The notes below the pieces were generated by a model. That model saw only the letters and a list, made by a program, of their open reading frames with translations, was not told the origin of the DNA and made no database searches. The position numbers and the translations under genes were made by a program. This document shows, piece by piece, positions 1 through 22,248 of a DNA stretch of 24,328 nt. Position 1 is the stretch's first letter; every line of letters begins with the position of its first letter. The DNA lies in the IMG/VR virus record IMGVR_UViG_3300004448_000162, positions 1 through 24,328 of that record. One strand, 5' to 3'. Source of the stretch: a virus.

Positions 1-3000
1 CTAGTTCTATAACCTCTTCTCATTGGTGTCACTATCTTTTCTTCATCAGGGTCCACACCTAACATATAATCTCTTAGTCTATTTGGATATACTTTTCCTT
101 CTTGATAATTCATTATTGCGTCATAAACGCTCTTTTGACCATCAGTTAAGTTTTTATAAAGATCAGTAACGTTTTTTGCTCCCAACGCTTTTTTTATTTT
201 CTTCATTTCAGAATCACTGTAATCATCAAAATTGATACCTTTTTTACCTAAAGTATTTAATGTTTCTGTTGTATTTAAAAACCAGGAAGCAATAGGTGGT
301 AAACTCCATTCAGCAGGTTTTTCAGTTATTATATTATAAGCTACGTTTCCAACGTATCCTGGTAACCCAAGCCCTTGTAAGTTGGAATTTATAGCGTCTA
401 AAAGTAGTTCTACAGATTTTCTTTCTTTAACTTCATCACCTTCATCATTAATAAATGCGTTTACAATTCCATTACCAACCGCCAAGAAAGGGACAGACCA
501 CATTACACTAAAGAATATAGCATCAGCTATTGCTTGCTTTTTTTGTTTGTTGTTTAAGTTTTTCCAATCTCTGGTATCTTCATACGCTCCTAATACTTTA
601 TTCATAGCTGAAGTCTGAGCTGTTTTATAAGTAACAAATAATTTACCTAATTTACTTCTAGCTACTTTTCCTAAAGCATAATCAGCTGATGTCTGCTGAG
701 ACTCATTAGATTCTTCAACAAACCTTTTATAAGTATAGTTCCAGGCATCTTCAAAACTCATTCCTTCTCTCATTTTCTGCTTATGAACAGCTACAGCAAA
801 AGGAACACCTCCACTAACTACACCAATAGCATCACCCATCATTATTGGAGACATAGCTATCTTTTGTAAGGTATTTGTAATTGTATTGTATGTAGAATTT
901 TTATCTAGCCCATCAATAGCTTTACTTAATAAAGGATCTACTTGAGTTTTTTTAATTCTTTCTTTAAGATAAGGACTTTGTAATATTCTAACTGCGATTT
1001 CTCTACCATTATTTGTAGATAGCATTTTTGGAAATCCAAGGGCCCAATCAACAGGATTAATACCATCTTTATATCCAGCTACAGAATAGTTTATAAAAGA
1101 AACAGCCTGTTTTGGAATATTCTTTACAGACATAGCTAGGTTAGTTACTATTCCAAATCTATTTAATTCCAGAATAACTTTTTCTAAAGACTTGACAGGA
1201 TCTGCGTTTAAATTAATTTGGCTATCTAAAGCTTCCATTAAAGATTCAAACTTAGCCTTCCCTAATTTTTGGTATATAGCTCCTATGTTTGGTTTATTAA
1301 ATACCTCATTAATACTTTCAGCAATCGGCATCATTTCCTTTGCGTGACTCATACTTCTGACATAAGAGATAAACATATTAGTAGCATCTAAATACAAATC
1401 AATTGGATCAGCGTTGTCAGTTCTTTCTTTCATCCTGTTTGAAAGAGCACTTCTTGTTATAAAGTCACCACCTTCGTCTAAAGTTTTTAATCTTTCTGTA
1501 GCACCAACTATACCAGTTTCATCTACTTTCCCTGCTTTATTATCAGGTACATATAACTCTTCTTCAAACACCATGTTGGTAGCTTTTTCATAAGTAGGTG
1601 CGAAGTCAGGGGCCATTTCTTCAAAAACTTTATAAAGATTATCTCCAAACTCTTTTATCTTAGGATTAGCTTCTATATACTTATCAAACTCTTTTTCATT
1701 AACACCTGATCTCTCTAGTATTTTATCAAACTTATCTGCTTTATTTAGTAAATTATCTTTAGCTGTACCCTTTAATTCTTGAGCATCCTCCCTCATTTGA
1801 GTAGCTCTTTTCTTGTAAAGGTTCTGGATAGCTACATACCTGCCTACCTGACCATTGTTTATTGTAGTTCCCCTTTTACTTACTACAACTGAGGTAGGAT
1901 TAAGTAATCCGTCTACAGTTTTTGAAAGTTCTTTAACTCCTTTTTTCTTACTGCCAAATACATCAGCCAAGTAGTTGTTATACATGTTCGTATACTTTCT
2001 TCTAGCTACTTGATTATTGGTATAAGCATTTTTAATTTGTTTTACAACCGGCTCTAATATTTTTCTAATTTCAGGAGCACCACGCCATAAAGGTTTCATT
2101 AAGTTTTCTATCGTTGCTATTTGATTAGCTGGATTTATTTTACCTCTTAATACACGAATAGGACTTCTTACATAATCTCTTTGAACTTGTTTCAAATCAA
2201 TAGAGGTATAAGCTTTAGTATTTTCGATAGGTAAGAATGGGTTGTCCTTCAAGAAGCTTTTGTAATTCCCTGGAGTGACCTCATAAGTATCATTAAGTAG
2301 TACAAATCCATTAGGATTATCATTAAAAAACTTATCTAATTCTTCTATTGTATCTATTTCTTTGAAGTCTTCTTTTTTATAAAGTTCTTTAGAAACATCT
2401 GCTTGCTTCTTATATCTAGTTATATTTTGTAAACGTTGAAGTGCATCTTGACTTGCTTTACCTTCTGTAACTATTTCTGTTACTACTTCGCTAAGTGCTT
2501 TAAGCTCTTCAGTAGTTTTGTTCTTTAAGTCTCCTATTTTTAAATCGTCTCTTATTTCTTTTAACTTCTTTCTGGATTCAACACTTATTTTAGGTAATTT
2601 CTTTGGAGAATATAGAGTATTTTTTAAGTATCTAATATTATCTTTTCTAATTATAGGATCCAGTATTTGATTAACCCCTTGTATTATCTCATCTATTTTA
2701 TCCTGAGTAAGTTTAGTATCAACAGAGCTTTTTATTATTCTTCTTACTTGAGCTGGTGTATACTTTTGTTTAGGTAATCCTAACTCTTTGTATTCTTTTT
2801 CTAAGTCTTTTAGTATCTCATCAATCTTAGTAATAGTTTCTTTATTTAAGTCTAGTGCTCTTTCACTTACTTTAGAATCTCTTTTTAGTTGTTGAGCCAA
2901 TTCTTGCAACTCTGTTTTTGGTTTTGCTTTAGACTTAGCTTTAGGTTTTTGAGTAGGTTTTATTTCTTTAGGAGCTTGTGTTTTGTAACCTGATATTTTT

Positions 3001-6000
3001 TCTTTTAAATCTTTAACAACCTCTTCACTTTTAAACTCACTAGCTTCTTCTCTAGCTAAGTCTTTCTCAAGTGTCTCTACTATTTTTTCTTTCGCTTCTT
3101 CTTTAACTTCTTCGGAAGCGACTTCGACTTTGTCTCCTTTTGCCACTGCTCCGCCATCTTTGGCTTGTTGGCGTACATCCACTTCCTTTGTGCTTTGCTT
3201 TTGAACGGCATCTTTCTTTATTTTAGTTTGTAATAGTTTACCCTCTTGCTTAGTTTTATTTATAATTTCTTGCATAGAATCAAGCTTATTACTCAAACCT
3301 TCTATGTTATTATTTAGCAAGTCTTTTATTAAATCTAATGATAGTTTTTGCTCTAATGATGAAACAGGTATGGCATCATATTCTTTCTTAATTTTATTTA
3401 ATGCATCAATGTTGAATTTGTTTAAATACTCAAACCCATCTACCACATTAGTAAATTTAAGAGAACTATTTTCAAAATCTTCAATGCTTTTTATGTCATT
3501 AGAAATCTGATTTTCTTCAATATCGTTATTTCTTTCAATCCAATTTTTTAGTTTGTCTACTTTTTCTTGTAAATACTTTACATCAGGCCTGTCTCCTCTA
3601 GAAGATAGCTCTCTAAGGATATCTCCAGCATTTTCAATTCTTTCTCTAATTACTTGAGATTCACCCCATATTTTTTTATTACCAACTGTTCTTTCAGCAG
3701 TAGCATCTTGCACATCAAAAGTATCTTCAAAAACATCAGCTACCTCTACTTCAGGCTTTTGAACGGCATCTTTTTTAGTTTTAATTATTATCTGAGTTTG
3801 TCTTCCTCCGTTTTGATCATTAGTAATTAACTTAACTACGTCTGCTTTTGAGGCATTTATAGCATCAGTTTCTGCTTGATCATAAGCTTTACCTGGGGAA
3901 AATTTAGAACCGTCAATCTCAACAGTTTCTATAGTTGCTCCTTTAGGTATTATGTCACTTATAACTTCTTTCTCTCCTTTGTATTTTTCAGCGGTGGATA
4001 TATCTTCAGAGTAGAATTTACCTTCAACATCTGGATGTCTGGTTTTTATAGTTCCATCTGCATTTCTCTTACCACCAGTCCCCTTGTATATAGTTAAATC
4101 TGTTTCAAGGACTTCGAGTTCTACCGGTTCTGGAGCAGCTTCTAAACTCACTTCTTTGCTTATTCCTAAATCTTGTTTTTGTTTCTTAGTTAATTTATCC
4201 TTCATCTTAGGATTCATAACTTTTTCCATTGGTAATGTCTCTGGAGTTCCGACTACCTCTCCAAAAGAAAGGCTGACAAAATCCATATTAGAAACGGTAT
4301 TTGTTGATGGTATGTTTTGGCTACCTACTGTTGTTACACCATCTACTTTTTGTTCTACTGTCCTGCTCCCATCCTTTTTAACAGTTACTTCCACAGTTCT
4401 AACACCTTCACCTGGCTCTGTTCTAATGGTGTAAATATCTTTACTTAAAGGTATCTGAGAGTCTTTAATTGTTTCAACCTCATCTACTTCTTTAGTTTCG
4501 TATTCTTTAGATAATTCTTTTAAAGCTTGATTAGTGTTTAATCCTTCTCTTCTCTTTGCTTCAATTTTGCTAACCAATTCTACATTATCTTCTTGCCACT
4601 TGATGTTTCTTAATGTTTTCTCTCTTCTATTTTTGTTAGTAGCTAAGTCAGTTAGTAACTCTGAAGTTGTCTCTGGAGTCTCTGATATTGTTTTAAGTTC
4701 TGATTCTATTTCATTAGACCTTTCATTTAAACTATTCAGTTCTTTCTGAGTTGCCTCATCCCTAAATTTTAGTTTATCTAATTCTTCTGCTTCTGCCTTT
4801 ATTCCTTCTAGCTCATTTATCTTTTCTATTACGACAGACTTAGTCTTACTATTTTGAACTCCTATTTCAGAACTGTTCTTTAATACTTCCGAAACTTTAT
4901 TAATTACATCTTGACCTTCAGCAGCAGTTATGTTATTATTCTTTACTTGAGACTTTACCGAGTTGCTTATGTTCTTTAGTTCTGCTGGAGTAGAGCTAAT
5001 AAAACTATTTATTTCTCCTGCATCTAAATTGACTTCAGTTGGTTCTACCTCTCCTTTTACAACGTCTTTTGTTATTTTTTTAAGACCACTGTTTTGTTTC
5101 TCTTGCCTATCTCTTTGATTAGTTACATCTTGAATTTGTTCTTTAGCAGCATTTAAATTTTCGTTGTAGCTTACATCTTGTATTATGTCAACTAACTTAT
5201 TCTTGTCAGCAGCTGTACCGTTTTTGTTAACTGCCTCTATACCACTTTCAATTAACATGTTTTCAGTGTATGCTTCTCCTTCAGGAGGCTTAGGCGCTTG
5301 TGACTTAACCCATTTCCAATCTATCTTTCTTCCTCTAGCCTCTAAAATATCTTTACCTAAAGCATCGTGAAATTTTTTATAAGTACTCTTTTGAGCAATA
5401 TTTGCAGCAAGCATAACTGACCATAGTTTAAACCCCTTTTCTATTGGATCTTCTCCTTCGGGATTTTCAGGCGTCTTACCATATACTACTTCATCCCAAG
5501 CTATACCAGCTTCTTTACCTTTAATAATTGATTTATCAAAAAGCTCAGCTGCATATATTACAGTAGTTGTTACACCAGCTTCTGCTCCCTTACCAACTAC
5601 AAACTTACCAGTATTGTACCCAGGAATTGAAGCACTTAAGACATCGTCTATTACTTTAGCAGCAGGCAACTTACCTAACAAGGTGCTTCCAGCTTCTGCT
5701 ACTGGAATAAGAACTCCAAAAGTAGCACCTAACAAAGGATCATATTCCTCTTGCTTATCAAGCATAACTCCGGTTAATCCAAACTTAGTTCCTTCAGTCG
5801 CTCCGCCTGCTAAAATTTTCATACCTAAACCTGCCCAGGTGCCATATTTTTTTGTAGCAAATACCGTAGCAGCTTCTAGTACTTGAGGTATTTTAGTAGA
5901 CTTTAGTACTGCTCCACCAGTTCCGTACAGCTCTAAAACCATTCCGCCAATATTACCCGTAAGTTCTTGTGTTTTTTCACCAAAGGTTAATTCAGATGAT

Positions 6001-7610
6001 TTTTGTAATTCGTCTATTGCTTCTCCACTAAAACCTTTTTCTTTTAATACATTTGCTAATGGTTGAGCTTGAGTAACTTTAACTTTAAATTCATTGCTTC
6101 CAGAACCAAAAGAGATGTCAGGGTTTTTACTATATTCGTCACCAAAAACAGTAGATATAAAACCTGATTCTAAACCAGATAAATCTATTAAAGATTTATT
6201 CTCTTCTGCTGGGGGAAATTTATTTAATTCTACGGCTCTGTTAACTGCGTCAAATTGCCTTAGCTTTTCATTAAGCTGTTTAGCAAGAGGATGCTCACTC
6301 ATTATTTGAGGTATTATTCCTTTAAACCCATTATCTTTTTCATTAGGAAAGTTCTCTAACTGAAGTTCAATATTTTTATCTCTTGGATTATCAAACTCTG
6401 CGCCAATAAAGTTCGCTGCTTTATTAACTAAACCTGTACCTTCATCGACTATGCTTCCTAAAAAAGTTCTTTCTTCTAGTACGTCTTCCTTGTTTCTTTT
6501 TACTTGCTTACTTAAGTTTAAAACGTCATAATACAAATCGGTTCTTATCTTTAATAACTCTTCTTCTCCTGTAGTCTCAGACATTTTCTTAGCCTCAGCA
6601 TCAACATTGTCTGTATATTGAATAACAGGTGCAGGTGCGTTTATCTTAAGTACAAATTTTCCGGTAAATGGGTCGTAGATTTTTTGAGACTTGTCATTAG
6701 ATTCTAATAAAGGATTCGATGTCTTAGACCATTCTTTAGTTACTTTATCTAATTCCTTTTGCTTAGACTCTTTCTGCAGCTTGAAATTCTGGTAATTGGT
6801 TTTATCCTCTCCTCTGAGCTCCTCTACTTTTACAGGGATTATTTTTTCTCCTGTGCTAAACTGCAGAAGACTTCTCATCTCCATGTCAATATTTTTTATG
6901 TCTGCCTCTAGCTTTCTTTTATTCTTATAAAGATTTGAAGTGTTAATATTATCCTCTACTTTTTCTCCATCTATAAACCTATCTTCATCTGCTTTAATAT
7001 ATAGATTAGCAAAGTCTGTGACTTTATTCTCTTGAATAGAAAGAGCCTCAGTATTACTTATCCCAGGCTTGTTCACACTCATCACTTCTCCTTGAGGGTC
7101 TGTTCCTACTACCTTCCTCATTGTAGTCTCTTGAATGTTTTTTAAATCGGAGTCTTTATTTATCTCACTTATGGATTCAGTAAATACCTCTTGCTCTACT
7201 TCTGATGCAGGGCGCATACTTGGGTCTTTTATTATACCTGGTGTGGATGTTCCTGATATCCCTGGTATTTGCTCTTCTACAACAACTTCTGTTTCACTAG
7301 GAGTTTTAACTTCTTCTTCTAAAACTGATGCCTGCGAAGTACTCTCGTTTCCGACCTCGGTAGTAGATTCCGTAATTTCCTCTTGAGAATCTGAAACCAA
7401 TTCCGTTTCTTCTTTTTTTTTTAAACCTGCGTTGTTAGCCCAAGTATCAAAGTCACTAGATGTTAATTCACTGTCTATTAAATAACTGTGGATATTGGCT
7501 TGAACATCACTAGATCCAGACACGTTTGTTTTCCAAGTATCAAAGTCACTCTGAGTTAAGCCTTTTTCTGTTAGATGAGACCATATATTATTAAGAATTT
7601 CTTCGTTCAT
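1..7610 (-). CDS. Giant polyvalent-type virion (ejected cargo) protein, 3' end outside window
   Basis: An uninterrupted frame of 2536 codons starts at ATG 7610 and is still open at position 1. In order it shows: two copies of a SDFDTW-containing unit (residues 10-29 and 40-60); a Glu/Ser/Thr-rich linker (64-120); a Gly/Ala-rich hydrophobic stretch (about 545-700); a coiled-coil-like region (910-1050); a candidate ADP-ribosyltransferase-like segment (1170-1275, motifs IYKGTGG, KFYSED, ADVVKL); two KKDAVQK repeats (1279, 1465); a Lys/Pro linker (1545-1567); long helical regions; a conserved-looking segment with SPIMMGD and SNESQQTS (about 2250-2305); and a hydrophobic segment (2353-2380). This mosaic fits phage polyvalent proteins, which are packaged and injected. 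It follows two probable cargo genes 9 bp downstream. crAss-like phages often carry a giant RNA polymerase here, but I see no DxDGD motif. Virion location and ART activity are inferred. Confidence 0.8.
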   Translation of the reverse strand, partial: MNEEILNNIWSHLTEKGLTQSDFDTWKTNVSGSSDVQANIHSYLIDSELTSSDFDTWANNAGLKKKEETELVSDSQEEITESTTEVGNESTSQASVLEEEVKTPSETEVVVEEQIPGISGTSTPGIIKDPSMRPASEVEQEVFTESISEINKDSDLKNIQETTMRKVVGTDPQGEVMSVNKPGISNTEALSIQENKVTDFANLYIKADEDRFIDGEKVEDNINTSNLYKNKRKLEADIKNIDMEMRSLLQFSTGEKIIPVKVEELRGEDKTNYQNFKLQKESKQKELDKVTKEWSKTSNPLLESNDKSQKIYDPFTGKFVLKINAPAPVIQYTDNVDAEAKKMSETTGEEELLKIRTDLYYDVLNLSKQVKRNKEDVLEERTFLGSIVDEGTGLVNKAANFIGAEFDNPRDKNIELQLENFPNEKDNGFKGIIPQIMSEHPLAKQLNEKLRQFDAVNRAVELNKFPPAEENKSLIDLSGLESGFISTVFGDEYSKNPDISFGSGSNEFKVKVTQAQPLANVLKEKGFSGEAIDELQKSSELTFGEKTQELTGNIGGMVLELYGTGGAVLKSTKIPQVLEAATVFATKKYGTWAGLGMKILAGGATEGTKFGLTGVMLDKQEEYDPLLGATFGVLIPVAEAGSTLLGKLPAAKVIDDVLSASIPGYNTGKFVVGKGAEAGVTTTVIYAAELFDKSIIKGKEAGIAWDEVVYGKTPENPEGEDPIEKGFKLWSVMLAANIAQKSTYKKFHDALGKDILEARGRKIDWKWVKSQAPKPPEGEAYTENMLIESGIEAVNKNGTAADKNKLVDIIQDVSYNENLNAAKEQIQDVTNQRDRQEKQNSGLKKITKDVVKGEVEPTEVNLDAGEINSFISSTPAELKNISNSVKSQVKNNNITAAEGQDVINKVSEVLKNSSEIGVQNSKTKSVVIEKINELEGIKAEAEELDKLKFRDEATQKELNSLNERSNEIESELKTISETPETTSELLTDLATNKNRREKTLRNIKWQEDNVELVSKIEAKRREGLNTNQALKELSKEYETKEVDEVETIKDSQIPLSKDIYTIRTEPGEGVRTVEVTVKKDGSRTVEQKVDGVTTVGSQNIPSTNTVSNMDFVSLSFGEVVGTPETLPMEKVMNPKMKDKLTKKQKQDLGISKEVSLEAAPEPVELEVLETDLTIYKGTGGKRNADGTIKTRHPDVEGKFYSEDISTAEKYKGEKEVISDIIPKGATIETVEIDGSKFSPGKAYDQAETDAINASKADVVKLITNDQNGGRQTQIIIKTKKDAVQKPEVEVADVFEDTFDVQDATAERTVGNKKIWGESQVIRERIENAGDILRELSSRGDRPDVKYLQEKVDKLKNWIERNNDIEENQISNDIKSIEDFENSSLKFTNVVDGFEYLNKFNIDALNKIKKEYDAIPVSSLEQKLSLDLIKDLLNNNIEGLSNKLDSMQEIINKTKQEGKLLQTKIKKDAVQKQSTKEVDVRQQAKDGGAVAKGDKVEVASEEVKEEAKEKIVETLEKDLAREEASEFKSEEVVKDLKEKISGYKTQAPKEIKPTQKPKAKSKAKPKTELQELAQQLKRDSKVSERALDLNKETITKIDEILKDLEKEYKELGLPKQKYTPAQVRRIIKSSVDTKLTQDKIDEIIQGVNQILDPIIRKDNIRYLKNTLYSPKKLPKISVESRKKLKEIRDDLKIGDLKNKTTEELKALSEVVTEIVTEGKASQDALQRLQNITRYKKQADVSKELYKKEDFKEIDTIEELDKFFNDNPNGFVLLNDTYEVTPGNYKSFLKDNPFLPIENTKAYTSIDLKQVQRDYVRSPIRVLRGKINPANQIATIENLMKPLWRGAPEIRKILEPVVKQIKNAYTNNQVARRKYTNMYNNYLADVFGSKKKGVKELSKTVDGLLNPTSVVVSKRGTTINNGQVGRYVAIQNLYKKRATQMREDAQELKGTAKDNLLNKADKFDKILERSGVNEKEFDKYIEANPKIKEFGDNLYKVFEEMAPDFAPTYEKATNMVFEEELYVPDNKAGKVDETGIVGATERLKTLDEGGDFITRSALSNRMKERTDNADPIDLYLDATNMFISYVRSMSHAKEMMPIAESINEVFNKPNIGAIYQKLGKAKFESLMEALDSQINLNADPVKSLEKVILELNRFGIVTNLAMSVKNIPKQAVSFINYSVAGYKDGINPVDWALGFPKMLSTNNGREIAVRILQSPYLKERIKKTQVDPLLSKAIDGLDKNSTYNTITNTLQKIAMSPIMMGDAIGVVSGGVPFAVAVHKQKMREGMSFEDAWNYTYKRFVEESNESQQTSADYALGKVARSKLGKLFVTYKTAQTSAMNKVLGAYEDTRDWKNLNNKQKKQAIADAIFFSVMWSVPFLAVGNGIVNAFINDEGDEVKERKSVELLLDAINSNLQGLGLPGYVGNVAYNIITEKPAEWSLPPIASWFLNTTETLNTLGKKGINFDDYSDSEMKKIKKALGAKNVTDLYKNLTDGQKSVYDAIMNYQEGKVYPNRLRDYMLGVDPDEEKIVTPMRRGYRT
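3197..3215. repeat. 19-bp direct repeat, copy 1 (inside giant gene)
   Basis: GCTTTTGAACGGCATCTTT occurs here and again at 3755-3773, exactly 558 bp apart. Both copies are read in the same frame on the minus strand as K-K-D-A-V-Q-K. The separation is 186 codons, so recombination between the copies would give an in-frame deletion. This copy lies at the edge of a segment of about 51% GC. Confidence 0.85.
3755..3773. repeat. 19-bp direct repeat, copy 2 (inside giant gene)
   Basis: Exact second copy of the 19-bp sequence at 3197-3215. It encodes the KKDAVQK motif just after the ART-like segment. Conservation at the nucleotide level, not only in protein, suggests a recent duplication or a recombining linker. 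Confidence 0.85.
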
Positions 7611-17363: not shown

Positions 17364-18283
17364 TTAATCCATTTAGCTCTTCCTCTTAAAGGCATTAAAA
17401 GTCTTCCAGGTTGCAAGTTGCTTAATCTAATTTTGGCGTTTCTAAGTTTAGCAGTTTTTTCTTTTCTAGCTCTAGTTATAATGTACTCTTGAACGTTTAT
17501 TTTGTTTTCTAAAATCGCCCATCTAATATAAGTATATAAGTAGTCTTCTGCTAGTTTATTTATAACTATTTGATTATCGTCTCCATTTTCCATACCGTCT
17601 GATATGTATTCTAAGACCACTAACTTATTACCCATTTCTGAACTAAAGTTAATTACACCACCAGCTTTATCTATTCTGAAATTAGGATTTTGATTAGCTA
17701 GTGACGTATTCATTCCGTAATGACCTCCTACTGAAAAACCAAAATACCATTCCCCATCACAACAATAACCTTCTTTATTATGATATGGGTGTCCTGTATT
17801 TAAATATAGTGTAGGTCTAGTGCCTTTTATTCTTTGTAAATCTATAGTGGAGTTTTCAGGTCTTAGTGCATTTCCATTTATGTCAAATAGTATTTCGGTA
17901 TCTTGATCCTGTAGATAAGCTGAAGAAAAATTAGTTTGAAAGTTTTCTATTAAAGGAAATAAAACTCCATTTTCATAAAGAGATATTCTCACATAGTTTA
18001 CATAGTCAGAAGGTAATATATATTTTAAGTCATCACTTACTTGTAACTCTAATATTTTTATATTCTTTAACGCATCGTAGTTAATCTCTTGTATACCTCT
18101 TTTGGCATGAAATAATATATTATACCTAGTAGTGTTGCTTACTAATTTATCATCTCCTGAATACATTAGCTCAAAGTTATTTACTATGTCGGCTAGTGAT
18201 ACATACTGGTAATCTCCCCAGTTTATATTCTTAGGAACAACATCATCATTAGTGTAATATTTTCTATCAGTTATATAGGCCAT
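17360..18283 (-). CDS. Head-tail connector / tail ring protein, 307 aa (tail tubular-like)
   Basis: Residues about 15-75 contain WGDYQYVSLADIVNNF and HAKRGIQEINYDALKNI. The middle contains LPSDYVNYVRISLYENG, and a Gly-rich insertion with an HPYHNK...CC...GGHYG cluster lies near 165-190. The C-terminus has VLEYISDGM, LAEDYLYTYIRWAIL, NAKIRLSNLQPGRLLMPLRG and a terminal WIK. I recall this set from the connector/tail-tube position of crAss-like and other podovirus genomes, where the protein forms a ring between portal and nozzle. Its ATG overlaps the stop of the preceding gene by 1 bp (TAATG), and its own TGA overlaps the nozzle start. This suggests translational coupling of three interacting proteins. 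TGA is the only non-TAA stop seen in the window. The exact ring assignment is not determinable by eye. Confidence 0.78.
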   Translation of the reverse strand: MAYITDRKYYTNDDVVPKNINWGDYQYVSLADIVNNFELMYSGDDKLVSNTTRYNILFHAKRGIQEINYDALKNIKILELQVSDDLKYILPSDYVNYVRISLYENGVLFPLIENFQTNFSSAYLQDQDTEILFDINGNALRPENSTIDLQRIKGTRPTLYLNTGHPYHNKEGYCCDGEWYFGFSVGGHYGMNTSLANQNPNFRIDKAGGVINFSSEMGNKLVVLEYISDGMENGDDNQIVINKLAEDYLYTYIRWAILENKINVQEYIITRARKEKTAKLRNAKIRLSNLQPGRLLMPLRGRAKWIK

Positions 18284-19032
18284 TAAGATTCAGTTTTAAT
18301 TTGTAGGATTTCTTCGCTTTTTTCAAAGTTTACTACTTCTTGTTCTCTGATACTTATTCCAGCATATTCACATATCTTAATAGTAATATCTATAGCATCT
18401 GAAAGCGGTAACTCAAAGTCTTGGTAAGAAGCACTAGTAGGGTCAAATACAGGATCACCATCAGCACCAATAGAATTATATGTCCAAGCTGGAGTTTGAG
18501 GATATCTAACATAAGTCAATAAAACATCTGAAGTAATAGACTCTGGATATACTTGAACCGCATTTGCCGCTGGGCTAATAGGACTAGTAATCGGAGCTGG
18601 ACCAACTACATAAGCTGGATAAGAAGTATTAGGAGCTGTTAAATTAGAAGAAAGTAATTTACCTATTTTATATTGAGATACTCTTTCTATTTCTGTATAA
18701 GTTTTTGGAGGTCCTGCAGGAACTACTTCTAGTTTTAGTAGAGTATACCAATCGTTAGGTAATGTAAATGAACCAGTTGCTACATGAGTTAAAGCACTAG
18801 AAACTGAAAAGGTGTCTAAAACCTCTCTCATTTCTTTTACAATATCAGCATAAGACTCTCCTGACATTCTTTGGTTTTGCTTCTTAGTCCAATTAGCTAG
18901 GCTAAAAAAGTATCCTTCAAATACCTCTAGTTGTGCTTGGTTTGCAAATAAATTAAATTCTTCTGGTGTTAAGTACCCGTTGTTGTTCTTGTTTAGTATG
19001 GATAGTACGGTATTTCTTACCTCGTTGATCAT
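18283..19032 (-). CDS. Head-tail connector / ring protein, 249 aa (gp4-like candidate)
   Basis: Begins MINEVRNTVLSILNK and continues GYLTPEEFNLFANQAQLEVF, a conserved start in connector proteins of this phage group. Later come FTLPNDWYTLLKLEV, a Pro-rich region with VQVYPESI and LLTYVRYPQTPAWTY, and a C-terminal FELPLSDAIDITIKICEYAG helix followed by a Glu-rich tail. Helical ends flanking a beta middle fit an adaptor bound to the portal, as in P22 gp4-like factors, though I claim only the role. It is the first gene after a terminator-promoter pair, with the -7 element 16 nt upstream of the ATG. It leads the ring/ring/nozzle/tail operon. Residues 14-25 resemble an EF-hand loop, but this is probably coincidental. 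Confidence 0.75.
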   Translation of the reverse strand: MINEVRNTVLSILNKNNNGYLTPEEFNLFANQAQLEVFEGYFFSLANWTKKQNQRMSGESYADIVKEMREVLDTFSVSSALTHVATGSFTLPNDWYTLLKLEVVPAGPPKTYTEIERVSQYKIGKLLSSNLTAPNTSYPAYVVGPAPITSPISPAANAVQVYPESITSDVLLTYVRYPQTPAWTYNSIGADGDPVFDPTSASYQDFELPLSDAIDITIKICEYAGISIREQEVVNFEKSEEILQIKTES

Positions 19033-19048: not shown

Positions 19049-19056
19049 CAAAGATA
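19049..19056 (-). promoter_or_regulatory. Bacteroidota-type -7 promoter element (TATCTTTG), ring/nozzle operon
   Basis: Minus strand GCTTATCTTTGTGACAAAT lies immediately after the T-tract of the preceding terminator and 16 nt before the ATG of the 249-residue ring protein. It matches TAnnTTTG. The TTTG is part of a perfect odd palindrome, TTTGT-C-ACAAA, at 19042-19052. No -33 element is evident; the terminator hairpin occupies that position. A leader of about 10 nt is expected. Confidence 0.65.
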
Positions 19057-19059
19057 AGC

Positions 19060-19089
19060 AAAAAAAAAGAGCCCCACTTGGAGACTCTT
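19060..19089 (-). terminator. Intrinsic terminator after the 177-aa gene
   Basis: On the minus strand the arm AAGAGTCTC (19089-19081) pairs with GGGGCTCTT (19075-19067) across the loop CAAGT, with two G-U type pairs. A run of nine T ends at 19060. It lies 23 bp past the stop of the 177-residue gene, the expected place for factor-independent termination, and directly before the next promoter element. Confidence 0.85.
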
Positions 19090-19112: not shown

Positions 19113-19646
19113 TTAGCCTATGCTAATTCCAATAACTTTTTGATTCAAGAAAACTGCCTCTGGAGCCACATTAGTCCATGAAGTTATTAAAGCGGCTTCC
19201 ATTTGCTCTTGTACTTGATCTCTCATTGCCTCACTTCCAGAAGCTACTGGCGTGTGAACTAAAGTTATCAAATCAGTTGCGCTAGGTCCATCATAAGCAA
19301 TGGTAGTTGTGCTTGTGCTAAGTTGCTCTATTAATCCTACGTCACCTATGGAAACTAGTTGATTATTGTAAGAGCTACCTGAATGAATGTAAACTTGTTG
19401 AGAAGCTGGTATATTAGCTGCCGCACCTCCTAAAGGTGTTAAATCTAACTGAGTATTACTAGCTATGTTAATTACTAAATAGTAATCATCAGCAGTTGCG
19501 TTATGAACAATGTCACCTAAAGAAACGTCTGCTAAAAATGTAGCTGAAGAAACTTGAAGTTCGGAACCTCCAGTAGGAGTAATGGAAGTTAAAGGACCTC
19601 CATTGGTTACTAGAAGATATACGGGTACGTTTAAAAACTTTTCCAT
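19113..19646 (-). CDS. Small virion-module protein with inserted domain, 177 aa (paralogue of the gene upstream)
   Basis: Both ends match the neighbouring 92-residue protein: MEKFLNVPV at the start, then QLVS-x2-D-x2-LIEQ, TTTTIAY, ASGSEAMRDQVQEQ, WTNV and a GISIG end. Between VPV and QLVS there is an extra segment of about 85 residues (about 10-95) containing VSLGDIVHNAT and VINIASNTQLDLT. It looks like a small beta-barrel of the type inserted in phage structural proteins. The protein is thus the short paralogue plus an inserted domain. It starts 3 bp after its paralogue and ends before a strong terminator, so the two form a dicistronic unit with its own promoter. Function unknown. A capsid decoration, plug or minor head role is plausible from position only. 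Confidence 0.72.
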   Translation of the reverse strand: MEKFLNVPVYLLVTNGGPLTSITPTGGSELQVSSATFLADVSLGDIVHNATADDYYLVINIASNTQLDLTPLGGAAANIPASQQVYIHSGSSYNNQLVSIGDVGLIEQLSTSTTTIAYDGPSATDLITLVHTPVASGSEAMRDQVQEQMEAALITSWTNVAPEAVFLNQKVIGISIG

Positions 19647-19649
19647 ATA

Positions 19650-19928
19650 TTACGCTATTATAATTGCGCTTACTGCTTTTGGCATTACTAGGTCAATAGA
19701 AACATTAGTCCATCTTTGGCTTAAAATGCTAACTACTCCGTCTTGAATAGCATCTCTCATTTCTTCGCTTCCTGAAGCTGATGCTGCGTGAGTTATAGTT
19801 GTTATTTTTCCTCCGCCATAAGTAATTTTTACGGTAGTTGTAGAAGCTTGTTCTATTAATTTAATGTCGTTGGCTGAGACTAATTGTTTTTGCTCGCCTG
19901 TAACTGGTATACTTAAAAACTTTTGCAT
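19650..19928 (-). CDS. Small conserved virion-module protein, 92 aa
   Basis: A compact alpha/beta protein: MQKFLSIPV, QLVSANDIKLIEQASTTT, VKITYGGGKITTITHA, ASGSEEMRDAIQD, RWTNV, then a hydrophobic end. No membrane segment, signal peptide or enzyme motif. It is the uninterrupted form of the fold also seen in the 177-residue neighbour. It is the first gene of a two-gene unit bounded by terminators on both sides, with a TACCTTTG promoter element 31 nt upstream of the ATG. Placement between the capsid and connector genes suggests a structural or assembly role needed at its own dose. I recall similar short proteins near capsid genes of aquatic phages but know no function. Confidence 0.7.
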   Translation of the reverse strand: MQKFLSIPVTGEQKQLVSANDIKLIEQASTTTVKITYGGGKITTITHAASASGSEEMRDAIQDGVVSILSQRWTNVSIDLVMPKAVSAIIIA

Positions 19929-19959: not shown

Positions 19960-19967
19960 CAAAGGTA
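19960..19967 (-). promoter_or_regulatory. Bacteroidota-type -7 promoter element (TACCTTTG), paralogue pair
   Basis: Minus strand GCTTACCTTTGTAAG lies directly after the T9 tract of the upstream terminator. It matches TAnnTTTG and is almost identical to the arrangement at 19049-19060. The TTTG core sits between arms CTTAC and GTAAG (19956-19969). The expected leader to the ATG at 19928 is about 25 nt. No -33 element is seen. Confidence 0.65.
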
Positions 19968-19970
19968 AGC

Positions 19971-20000
19971 AAAAAAAAAGGAAGCTTTGAAGCCTCCCTT
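19971..20000 (-). terminator. Intrinsic terminator after the 247-aa gene
   Basis: Minus-strand arm AAGGGAGGC (20000-19992) pairs with GCTTCCTTT (19985-19977) around the loop TTCAAA, with two G-U type pairs, and nine T follow (19979-19971). It lies 9 bp past the stop at 20010 and 3 bp before the next promoter element. Confidence 0.85.
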
Positions 20001-20009
20001 ATTTAGTGT

Positions 20010-20753
20010 TTATTTTACTTTCTTCTCAAGTAGCTCTAAGACTTCTAGCCCATCATCTGTCTTGAAATAAGATATTAATGAACGCTTATGGTCTTCACCA
20101 AACGGAACAGTAATAATTCTTTTTTTGTTTTCTTTTAGATTGTAATAGATTTCTCTCTTTTGCTTTCTAAAATTAATTAACTGCTGGTCAAATGCTTTAG
20201 TAACTAATTCTTCTAGCTCTAAATCTGAGTCATCTAACATTTCTAAAAACCCTTCTGGATCTTCTCTAGCGTATAGTAATACATCTCTTTTAAGCTCATT
20301 AGTTTTTACCCTGTCTACTTTAGATCCCATTAGTACCCTACCTATCATCTCTAATTTAGACAAAGGTAATTCCGAAGCAGCTTTTAAAGCGTCTATCTCT
20401 AAGGTCAGCAGCTCTAAATCATCCACAGCATCACGATCTAAATCTACTTCTTCGTAAAGAGTTCCATTTAAAGGGTGAAGAGCTAAAAATTGTTGAAGTA
20501 GTGTATCTGTTCTTTTAGTGTTTAAGAATCCATCTTCAAATATAATAGGCTCTATTAATACATTTTTATCTTGTTCGTCTTCGAAAATAGACTTTTGGTT
20601 TTTGGCATATCTCATTGCCCTGTTGATTCCCTTTTCTTCATCAAAGTGTAATAAAGGGTTACTCGGTGAGTGAGTTGAATTTATCATTGTGGAGATAGGT
20701 GTCTTATCTGACTTTAACCTATACATCCTGTCTTTTAATACTTGTTTTTTCAT
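20010..20753 (-). CDS. Conserved phage protein of unknown function downstream of MCP, 247 aa
   Basis: I place the start at ATG 20753 (MKKQVLKDRMYRLKSD). The frame stays open upstream to 20894, but that extension would be read out of frame through the MCP end and through the hairpin at 20782-20797, so it is not credible. The protein is charged and mainly helical. About residues 83-95 carry QFLALHPLNGTLYEEVD, followed by an acidic DRDAVDDLELLTLE helix. The middle has DPEGFLEMLDDSDLE, and the C-terminus has RKQKREIYYNLKE and TVPFGEDHKRSLISYF. No catalytic motif or membrane segment is recognised. It has no obvious promoter of its own and is probably reached by read-through past the MCP hairpin, then ended by a strong terminator. 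A minor virion or assembly role is inferred from position only. Confidence 0.75.
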   Translation of the reverse strand: MKKQVLKDRMYRLKSDKTPISTMINSTHSPSNPLLHFDEEKGINRAMRYAKNQKSIFEDEQDKNVLIEPIIFEDGFLNTKRTDTLLQQFLALHPLNGTLYEEVDLDRDAVDDLELLTLEIDALKAASELPLSKLEMIGRVLMGSKVDRVKTNELKRDVLLYAREDPEGFLEMLDDSDLELEELVTKAFDQQLINFRKQKREIYYNLKENKKRIITVPFGEDHKRSLISYFKTDDGLEVLELLEKKVK

Positions 20754-20781
20754 TTGATTTAATTTAATTAAGTAAATAATA

Positions 20782-20797
20782 GGGGGCCGAAGCCCCC
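20782..20797 (-). terminator. C(UUCG)G hairpin after MCP: leaky terminator or 3' stabiliser
   Basis: Minus strand GGGGGCTTCGGCCCCC forms a 6-bp all-GC stem closed by the very stable UUCG tetraloop, 17 bp after the MCP stop. The following sequence (TATTATTTACTTAATT) is AT-rich but not a clean T-run. Termination may therefore be partial, or the hairpin may mainly protect the abundant MCP transcript from 3' decay. No promoter motif follows before the next gene, consistent with read-through. Confidence 0.7.
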
Positions 20798-20814
20798 ATA
20801 TATAATTGTCTTTT

Positions 20815-22248
20815 TTATCCTTTGAACAATACAAAGTTGTTTGCACCCATAGTACATAGAGCTCTTTCAGATAAGAAGTTGACTTCCATCGCATCTAAAT
20901 CTGAAGTAGCAGCACCACCAGCACTACCAGTCATCCACGTTTTGTAACGTCTGTCTTCTGTTTCAGAAGCTCTGTATCTTACGTGTAAGAATGGTCTCTT
21001 AGCATTTTTTCCTAAGATTTGATCGTATACTGAAGTAGAACCAGCTGGTACTAAAGCACCGCTTACTTTTCCACCACTAATACCACCTCTTAAAGTAGCA
21101 TCGTTTAAGTATTTCCAATCTGACTTATAAAAATCATAACCTCTTCTGAATCCTTTGAATCCAAGGTTAAGTGCCATTTCTTCGTCATTGTCAAACAATC
21201 CGTAAGAAGTACCACCTGCACCGTAAGAGTTTTGAGCAGCTAACATGTCATCAATTGCGAAAGAGAAATTTCTATCAACAAAGATTACATTTTCCTGAAT
21301 AGCACCTTGCTTGTCTAACCTTTTGATTATAGTATCAAATGCAGCTAAAGTAGTTGGATAACCACCTGCCCATACATTTCCTCTATCTTCAATAGCTTCG
21401 AACATTCCTTCAGTACCTTGGCTACCTAAATCACTATCAGCACCAGTAACTGGAGCTAAAGCTTTTACACCTGAACCTGCAACGGCATCAACACCTTCGA
21501 TCATAGACATCTCTAAGTAGTCTTCAAATCTTAGTCTTGTTTCGTGCTCAGACTTTAAATACCAAAGATATCCAGTAGCTCCGTTTTCAGTAGTTACTTC
21601 AACCCATCCAATTTGAGCCATATCAGAACCAGAAACAACATACTTGTCTTTGATTATAATTGGTTTGTTAGATAAGAAGACATCTTCAGACTCTAAAGAA
21701 CCAACCATTCCGTTAGCACCTTTTTTGAATTCAGAACCGTATACGAAAATAGTAGCTGTTCCTGCGTTCATTCCAACTGCTTGATTTGCTTCGTAGTAAG
21801 CTACTTCAAAAGCATCAGCTGTACCAGCAGCAGTAGCAGCACCAACGGCTGTTACGATAGCTTTGTTTGAAGTTGATCCACCTTCTAAAGAAATGAAAAG
21901 TGTTTGACCTACTCTAAAGTTACAAGCTGCACCACCTGCAGTTATCCAAGGAACGTTAGTTGCAGCAGTAGCACCATCAGCTCCTGTTGTACTACATCCT
22001 TCGTACTTTGTGTGTAGTCTACCTTGCTCTGCCCATTTAATAAGGTCTGAGTTAGTAGGCATTTCAGCTCCTACCATACGTAAGAAAGCTGCGATTGTTC
22101 TGTTACCGTATCTTTCGAATTCTTTTTCGTAAGTATCAGGTAAATATTGATTTAAAAAATCAAAGTTTGTTATATAATTGCTTGGTAAAGCTGCCTTTAC
22201 CGAACTGGGAGTTAATGCAACTCCACCAGCGTTTAATGATCCTGCCAT
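20815..22248 (-). CDS. Major capsid protein, 477 aa (HK97-fold expected, crAss-like type)
   Basis: Recognised from a motif set I associate with crAss-like and related phage capsid proteins: HETRLRFEDYLEMSMIEG (about 235-252), VIFVDRNFSFAIDDML, GYDFYKSDWKYLNDATLRGG (about 368-387), FLHVRYRASETEDRRYKTW, and the C-terminal DLDAMEVNFLSERALCTMGA followed by NNFVLF. Gene order portal, scaffold, MCP supports it. Residues about 85-175 form a Gly/Ala/Thr-rich beta segment with FRVGQTLFI and GTATIFVYGSEFKKG, likely an insertion domain exposed on the capsid surface. The start gives MAGSLNAGGVALTP. It lies 18 bp after the scaffold gene, with an A-rich leader and no Shine-Dalgarno, as usual in Bacteroidota. 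Codons are somewhat more regular than in neighbours, as for a highly expressed gene. The HK97 fold is inferred from family knowledge. Confidence 0.9.
   Translation of the reverse strand: MAGSLNAGGVALTPSSVKAALPSNYITNFDFLNQYLPDTYEKEFERYGNRTIAAFLRMVGAEMPTNSDLIKWAEQGRLHTKYEGCSTTGADGATAATNVPWITAGGAACNFRVGQTLFISLEGGSTSNKAIVTAVGAATAAGTADAFEVAYYEANQAVGMNAGTATIFVYGSEFKKGANGMVGSLESEDVFLSNKPIIIKDKYVVSGSDMAQIGWVEVTTENGATGYLWYLKSEHETRLRFEDYLEMSMIEGVDAVAGSGVKALAPVTGADSDLGSQGTEGMFEAIEDRGNVWAGGYPTTLAAFDTIIKRLDKQGAIQENVIFVDRNFSFAIDDMLAAQNSYGAGGTSYGLFDNDEEMALNLGFKGFRRGYDFYKSDWKYLNDATLRGGISGGKVSGALVPAGSTSVYDQILGKNAKRPFLHVRYRASETEDRRYKTWMTGSAGGAATSDLDAMEVNFLSERALCTMGANNFVLFKG

Follow-up and report, generated by a model that had tools for sequence, protein, structure and literature searches.

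A tandem gene pair with an exchangeable inserted domain in the virion module of crAss-like phages

What might two small neighboring genes contribute to a phage when one of them looks like the other with a whole domain set into it? The question is raised by a 24,328-base virus record, analyzed here over its full length and called the window, in which a 92-residue protein (S) and a 177-residue protein (L) are encoded side by side. Most environmental crAss-like phages are known from sequence alone, and the viruses with neighboring S and L genes are uncultured, mostly marine, and infect bacteria.

Genomic setting of the pair

The window holds a crAss-like virion module comprising portal, MCP, G294, S, L, ring protein, and muzzle, and all genes described below lie on the minus strand. 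The portal is represented by its C-terminal part only (phrog_6547 match), and a 379-residue protein was named SCAF from its position alone. The MCP-like protein (20815-22248; phrog_13704), G294 (open reading frame 20010-20894; phrog_34748), S (19650-19928), L (19113-19646), the ring protein R249 (18283-19032; phrog_14543), and R307 (phrog_13977) are followed by a muzzle-like protein of 1974 residues, then by a 261-residue protein with the Pfam domain crAss_MUZ_C (44.1 bits against a cut-off of 27), with further genes beyond. An open frame at 3-7610, encoding 2536 residues, leaves the contig at its left end.

In profile comparisons with proteins of phage phiCrAss001, the 1974-residue protein matches the muzzle gp44 (probability 93%, E = 3e-7) and R249 matches the ring protein gp34 (hhalign probability 64%, E = 6.5e-5, 147 columns). 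G294 has gp33 as a weak counterpart only, gp32 stands outside the four best matches of the MCP among 13 phiCrAss001 proteins, and R307 has no clear match among these 13. Phage records containing an MCP relative number 85 and comprise 68 from Flavobacterium, 15 from Cellulophaga, 1 from Maribacter, and 1 uncultured.

Terminator-like sites are found after the MCP, G294, and L genes, and the last two are each followed by TTTTTTTGCTTAYCTTTG, which has two perfect matches in the window against an expectation of 0.4 with up to three mismatches. The hairpin between G294 and S spans 19977-20000 and that past L spans 19067-19089. The promoter-like string TTTTTTTGCTTACCTTTG upstream of S (19960..19977) contains a TAnnTTTG box, which may be a Bacteroidota -7 element, and the same string stands upstream of the ring-protein gene (19049..19066). 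Among relatives, 103 of 104 distinct intervals have a terminator-like site after the unit (about 1.0 after shuffling) and 100 of 104 have a TAnnTTTG box no more than 70 nt upstream of S (about 5.3 after shuffling), whereas an upstream terminator-like site is present in just 18 of 104. As read from these sequence signals, the pair probably has its own transcript, as the first-pass annotation of the window had proposed. The G294 open reading frame as listed overlaps the MCP end and a terminator-like site at 20782-20797; as its PHROG match begins at residue 47, the real start is probably downstream of that site.

Paralogy, predicted structure, and origin of L

S and L, separated by 3 nt in the window, had been described from the sequence as paralogues alike at both ends, and BLASTP bears this out (58 bits, E = 6e-17, 35 of 77 residues or 45% identical), with a second match at the N terminus. 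The approximately 85 extra residues noticed near the N terminus of L are likewise recovered: alignment places about 86 at residues ~10 to 95 (19362..19619), followed by a core of residues ~96 to 177 (19116..19361) that is paralogous to S. Structure prediction, which had been proposed for both proteins, gave confident AlphaFold models (pLDDT 90 and pTM 0.78 for S, pLDDT 84 and pTM 0.80 for L). Compared by order of elements rather than by superposition, the common part of the two models has five strands, a helix, and a last strand in the same order. The extra segment falls between core strands 1 and 2 and is predicted to be mainly beta.

Against solved structures the S model has no close relative, PH domains coming first (Z 5.2 over 68 residues at 4.1 Å), and the nearest structures to the L insert are generic barrels with Z of about 6, including the E-loop domains of the phiCrAss001 MCP and phage VP1. 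S and L have no Pfam or PHROG match, S reaching only a weak MliC match at E up to 10; S, L, and the module profiles found no credible match among PDB sequences, and BFVD yielded close models without name or function (best A0A516LJI9, TM 0.98). A KTSC-like fold for S was rejected, the fold likeness being Z 3.1 only and a Pfam KTSC match absent. The idea that the L insert was copied from the MCP E-loop domain was rejected as well: that domain is on the structure list, but generic barrels score equally and profile comparison gives 0.3%. Profile comparison also shows no sequence relation between the insert and the lineage's own MCP domain. In some S relatives (L034, L036, L041, and others) the loop between strands 3 and 4 is 6 to 8 residues longer, a possible second variable site.

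Relatives were collected from IMG/VR at 72 loci for S, 35 for L, and 17 for a distant S, and by profile scans of IMG/VR, from which the best 80 of 342 matches for S and the best 80 of 145 for L were used. The 108 distinct intervals from G294 to the ring protein contain S and L in 67 cases, S only in 31, S, a second S-type gene (S'), and L in 6, and none in 4, frequencies that differ from natural ones since loci were gathered through similarity to S or L. Wherever both neighbors are present, the genes run G294, S, (S'), (L), R249, the S-only relatives having the same gene order as those with S and L, and in all 67 S+L and 6 S+S'+L intervals S (or S') lies 2 to 31 nt from the next paralogue on one strand. 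The four intervals counted as having none are those of the phage records elemo 6-9C, Panino, and ctfjg026, plus L057, where an S gene with an in-frame stop (L057:5998-6279) is either a pseudogene or a sequencing error.

Several loci depart from the common form. L228 and L229 have an S relative and none of the anchor genes; that of L229 (4965-5255) is a lone 96-residue protein about 1.4 kb upstream of what appears by eye to be a large terminase-like open reading frame, in a gene order that is not crAss-like. The 345-residue L protein of L067 matches the insert profile three times, twice ahead of the core and once near the end. L proteins of 267 residues (L088:6246-7049, L092:5614-6417, and L093:1557-2360) have, near the C terminus, an additional glycine-rich module of a different kind, which in L088 matches the structural protein phrog_697 (E = 3e-9).

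Searches of 50,697 phage records at E up to 1, and of a bacterial genome collection, turned up no relative of either S or L, and the insert module peptide had no match among named phages. The lineage's named members lack both genes, which makes the pair non-essential to it.

The first-pass annotation had taken L to be the product of duplication followed by domain insertion. The core tree agrees: all 63 L rows fall on one side of a single branch (SH-aLRT 95) in a tree of 90 columns with many open forks and several long branches. This placement fits a single duplication-plus-insertion, which, judged from the sequences, would be the simplest history of L.

Exchange of the inserted domain

The L insert is a cassette exchanged between related phages independently of its gene, a point that goes beyond the earlier annotation, which had proposed tracing the insertion across related phages. 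Insert identity is frequently at odds with that of the core among 62 of 73 L proteins (those of 150 to 190 residues, longer and shorter forms being excluded). When cores are at least 85% identical, inserts fall below 50% identity in 98 of 184 pairs; conversely, 24 of 82 pairs with inserts at least 85% identical have cores below 65%. These pairs are interdependent, belonging to ten groups of relatives, of which two (17 and 9 members) mix insert types. The window itself illustrates both directions. Compared with L009, its MCP, R249, and R307 DNA is 0.99 identical and its insert just 0.58, while compared with L098 the insert is 0.996 identical and the same three genes 0.93, 0.90, and 0.88. Eight pairs picked as illustrations show abrupt changes in the DNA near codon 9 and where the core begins, in both directions, and the first nine codons and the S-L junction are 94 to 100% identical even between diverged pairs.

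As a control, five neighbor genes, in segments of about 85 residues, and the whole of S were compared in the pairs with cores at least 85% identical. Identity below 50% occurs in 0 of 184 pairs for S, 0 of 184 for G294, 0 of 132 to 162 for R249, 0 of 116 for R307, and 1 of 59 for SCAF, in one of its four segments. Four MCP segments likewise have no such pair, and the segment at the place of the E-loop has 11 of 107 (median identity 0.69), making the MCP E-loop domain the only comparably variable segment besides the L insert among those measured. The two do not covary, 76 of 500 permutations giving a value as high. Insert types change 17 times on the core tree (minimum 8; shuffled mean 35) and 16 times on an MCP tree of 44 rows (minimum 8; shuffled mean 25).

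Exchange of this kind could be neutral, with the insert acting as a spacer that recombines often owing to the conserved DNA on its flanks and without selection for a changed surface. The near-identical first codons and junction would then simply be a recombination arm, and the common pattern shared by several insert types is in keeping with a spacer. Against this stand the many insert types that are kept and the near constancy, in the same pairs, of the other segments of these genes and their neighbors, and we regard neutral exchange as improbable.

A possible place at the virion surface

The explanation that we favor, and to which as a whole we give an even chance, is that S and L are virion-surface proteins, L bearing an exchangeable barrel that faces outward. 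An ancestral S gene would have duplicated, and a small beta-barrel would have entered the first hairpin loop of one copy. The two proteins, presumably co-transcribed, would sit on the virion surface of a crAss-like podophage lineage; as they keep the same core, both probably dock at one type of site. That site would most likely be on the head, where L may decorate part of the positions with its barrel pointing outward. Recombination at the short conserved DNA flanking the insert would let phages swap the barrel, altering the exposed surface for binding to the host or surroundings, or for escape from recognition, with the assembly core untouched.

Gene position is consistent with a virion role, S and L being fixed between the MCP and G294 genes and the ring and muzzle genes in loci with both. 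The ring protein, a virion structural family, points the same way. The L-insert profile matches R249 relatives of 309 to 323 residues, where the module splits the phrog_14543 match (for example, L110:4440-5390, L220:2866-3813, and L036:2504-3433). Among complete R249 proteins, the module is present in 33 of 62 from S+L relatives, 1 of 28 from S-only relatives, 0 of 6 from S+S'+L relatives, and 0 of 4 others, a pattern rather than a test because clades are confounded; the 0 of 6 is perhaps an undercount, as inspection by eye shows an insert at that position in L169. R249 of the window lacks an insert-type module. One muzzle also matches the L-insert profile (E = 1e-4).

These occurrences bear on a different possibility, that S and L are assembly helpers outside the virion, or other infection proteins, whose insert varies with the phage or host partner that it binds. 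The pair is missing from the named relatives, a virion sighting of any relative is lacking, and the lone S relative of L229 lies in a different phage context, all of which would suit such a role. However, the insert family is present in virion families, namely ring proteins of phrog_14543 and a muzzle, and the second module of L088 matches a structural protein. A role outside the virion seems to us quite unlikely.

As to where on the virion S and L would be, evolutionary distances favor the head for S. Distances among S proteins track those of the MCP best (partial r 0.25), the MCP being top in 191 of 200 half-samples, which is weak evidence because slow MCP evolution alone may yield better distances. 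For the L core, the MCP is not ahead of the ring protein and is top in 58 of 200. In phiCrAss001, a large part of the exposed surface of the capsid is made up by the E-loop domain (PMC10172136), and the variability that the insert shares with it hints that the insert is exposed too.

The head is our preferred location, and the chief rival is a part of the tail or neck, with S and L serving in collar or fibre docking at the ring proteins much like the A2B hubs of phiCrAss001 (two THA, one THB). We consider this alternative possible and less probable than a head location. The genes adjoin that of the ring protein, itself matching gp34, and many S+L relatives have the related module inside it; the L core tracks R249 no worse than it tracks the MCP, and the phiCrAss001 hubs combine a larger and a smaller protein (PMC10172136). 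Gene order had even suggested that S and L are the tail hubs THA and THB. This identity was set back, as gp38 (THA) carries a TPR annotation and S is mainly beta, and the core profile has no match to those of gp38 and gp39, its best hhalign probability among 13 phiCrAss001 proteins being 0.4%. The closer tracking of the MCP than of the ring genes by S also speaks against the tail.

If S and L share a site on the head, they may assemble together, with S and L at some ratio in one lattice. S and the L core do co-vary (partial r 0.78 given four neighbor genes), which is compatible with mixed assembly and is explained equally by physical linkage of adjacent genes.

Known phage systems offer partial parallels. 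In SPP1, plain and domain-bearing forms of the major tail protein gp17.1 (gp17.1 and gp17.1*) occur in one assembly at 3:1 (PMC8718954). The likeness is that of a plain and a domain-bearing version of one protein, mixing being conjectural for S and L. In SPP1 a ribosomal frameshift appends an FN3 domain at the C terminus, whereas S and L come from tandem genes, two separate open reading frames with their own starts and stops, and the domain lies in an internal hairpin loop. T4-like Hoc proteins combine a conserved, capsid-binding anchor with variable displayed beta domains, and phages Muldoon and PG7 encode Hoc in both short and long versions (PMC10385173). The Hoc domains are Ig-like and lie in a row at one end of the anchor, whereas L has one barrel, swapped as a cassette, inside a 92-residue core; no Hoc chain is among the PDB sequence and fold matches listed for S and L, nor was a sequence relation to Hoc found.

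Within the crAss-like virion, the capsid auxiliary protein gp36 of phiCrAss001 (333 residues) has a PH-like domain with an inserted domain resembling flagellin and FliD (PMC10172136). It resembles L in having one domain inserted in another, the PH likeness of S being weak. Together with the head fibres gp21 and gp29, gp36 is a head-surface protein (PMC10172136), the location that we propose for S and L, and in profile comparison the S/L core showed no sequence relation to any of the three. Domain mosaicism of receptor-binding and other phage proteins likewise involves recent fragment exchange on a conserved anchor (PMC10684548). It is described there in fibres, spikes, endolysins, and polymerases, whereas here it is limited to a single loop in a small pair of paralogues located between the MCP and ring genes. 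None of the tests made showed that S and L belong to the gp17.1, Hoc, or receptor-binding systems.

Three points are new: tandem duplication gave rise to the two forms, the variable part occupies a hairpin loop within a core of 92 residues, and exchange is restricted to that loop. Among the titles and abstract openings listed in searches of an open-access library, none described the pair or the insert exchange. More tentatively, S and L may make up a two-gene constant/variable system, in which S is the constant component and L carries the variable domain within one lattice. Swapping would involve an 86-residue cassette flanked by two fixed recombination arms, and cassettes related to it would have spread to the ring protein and one muzzle. 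At this compact site, DNA alone reveals which unit is exchanged, where its borders lie, and which constant part carries it. Should the insert bind hosts or surfaces, its type would mark phage specificity and could be read from metagenomes.
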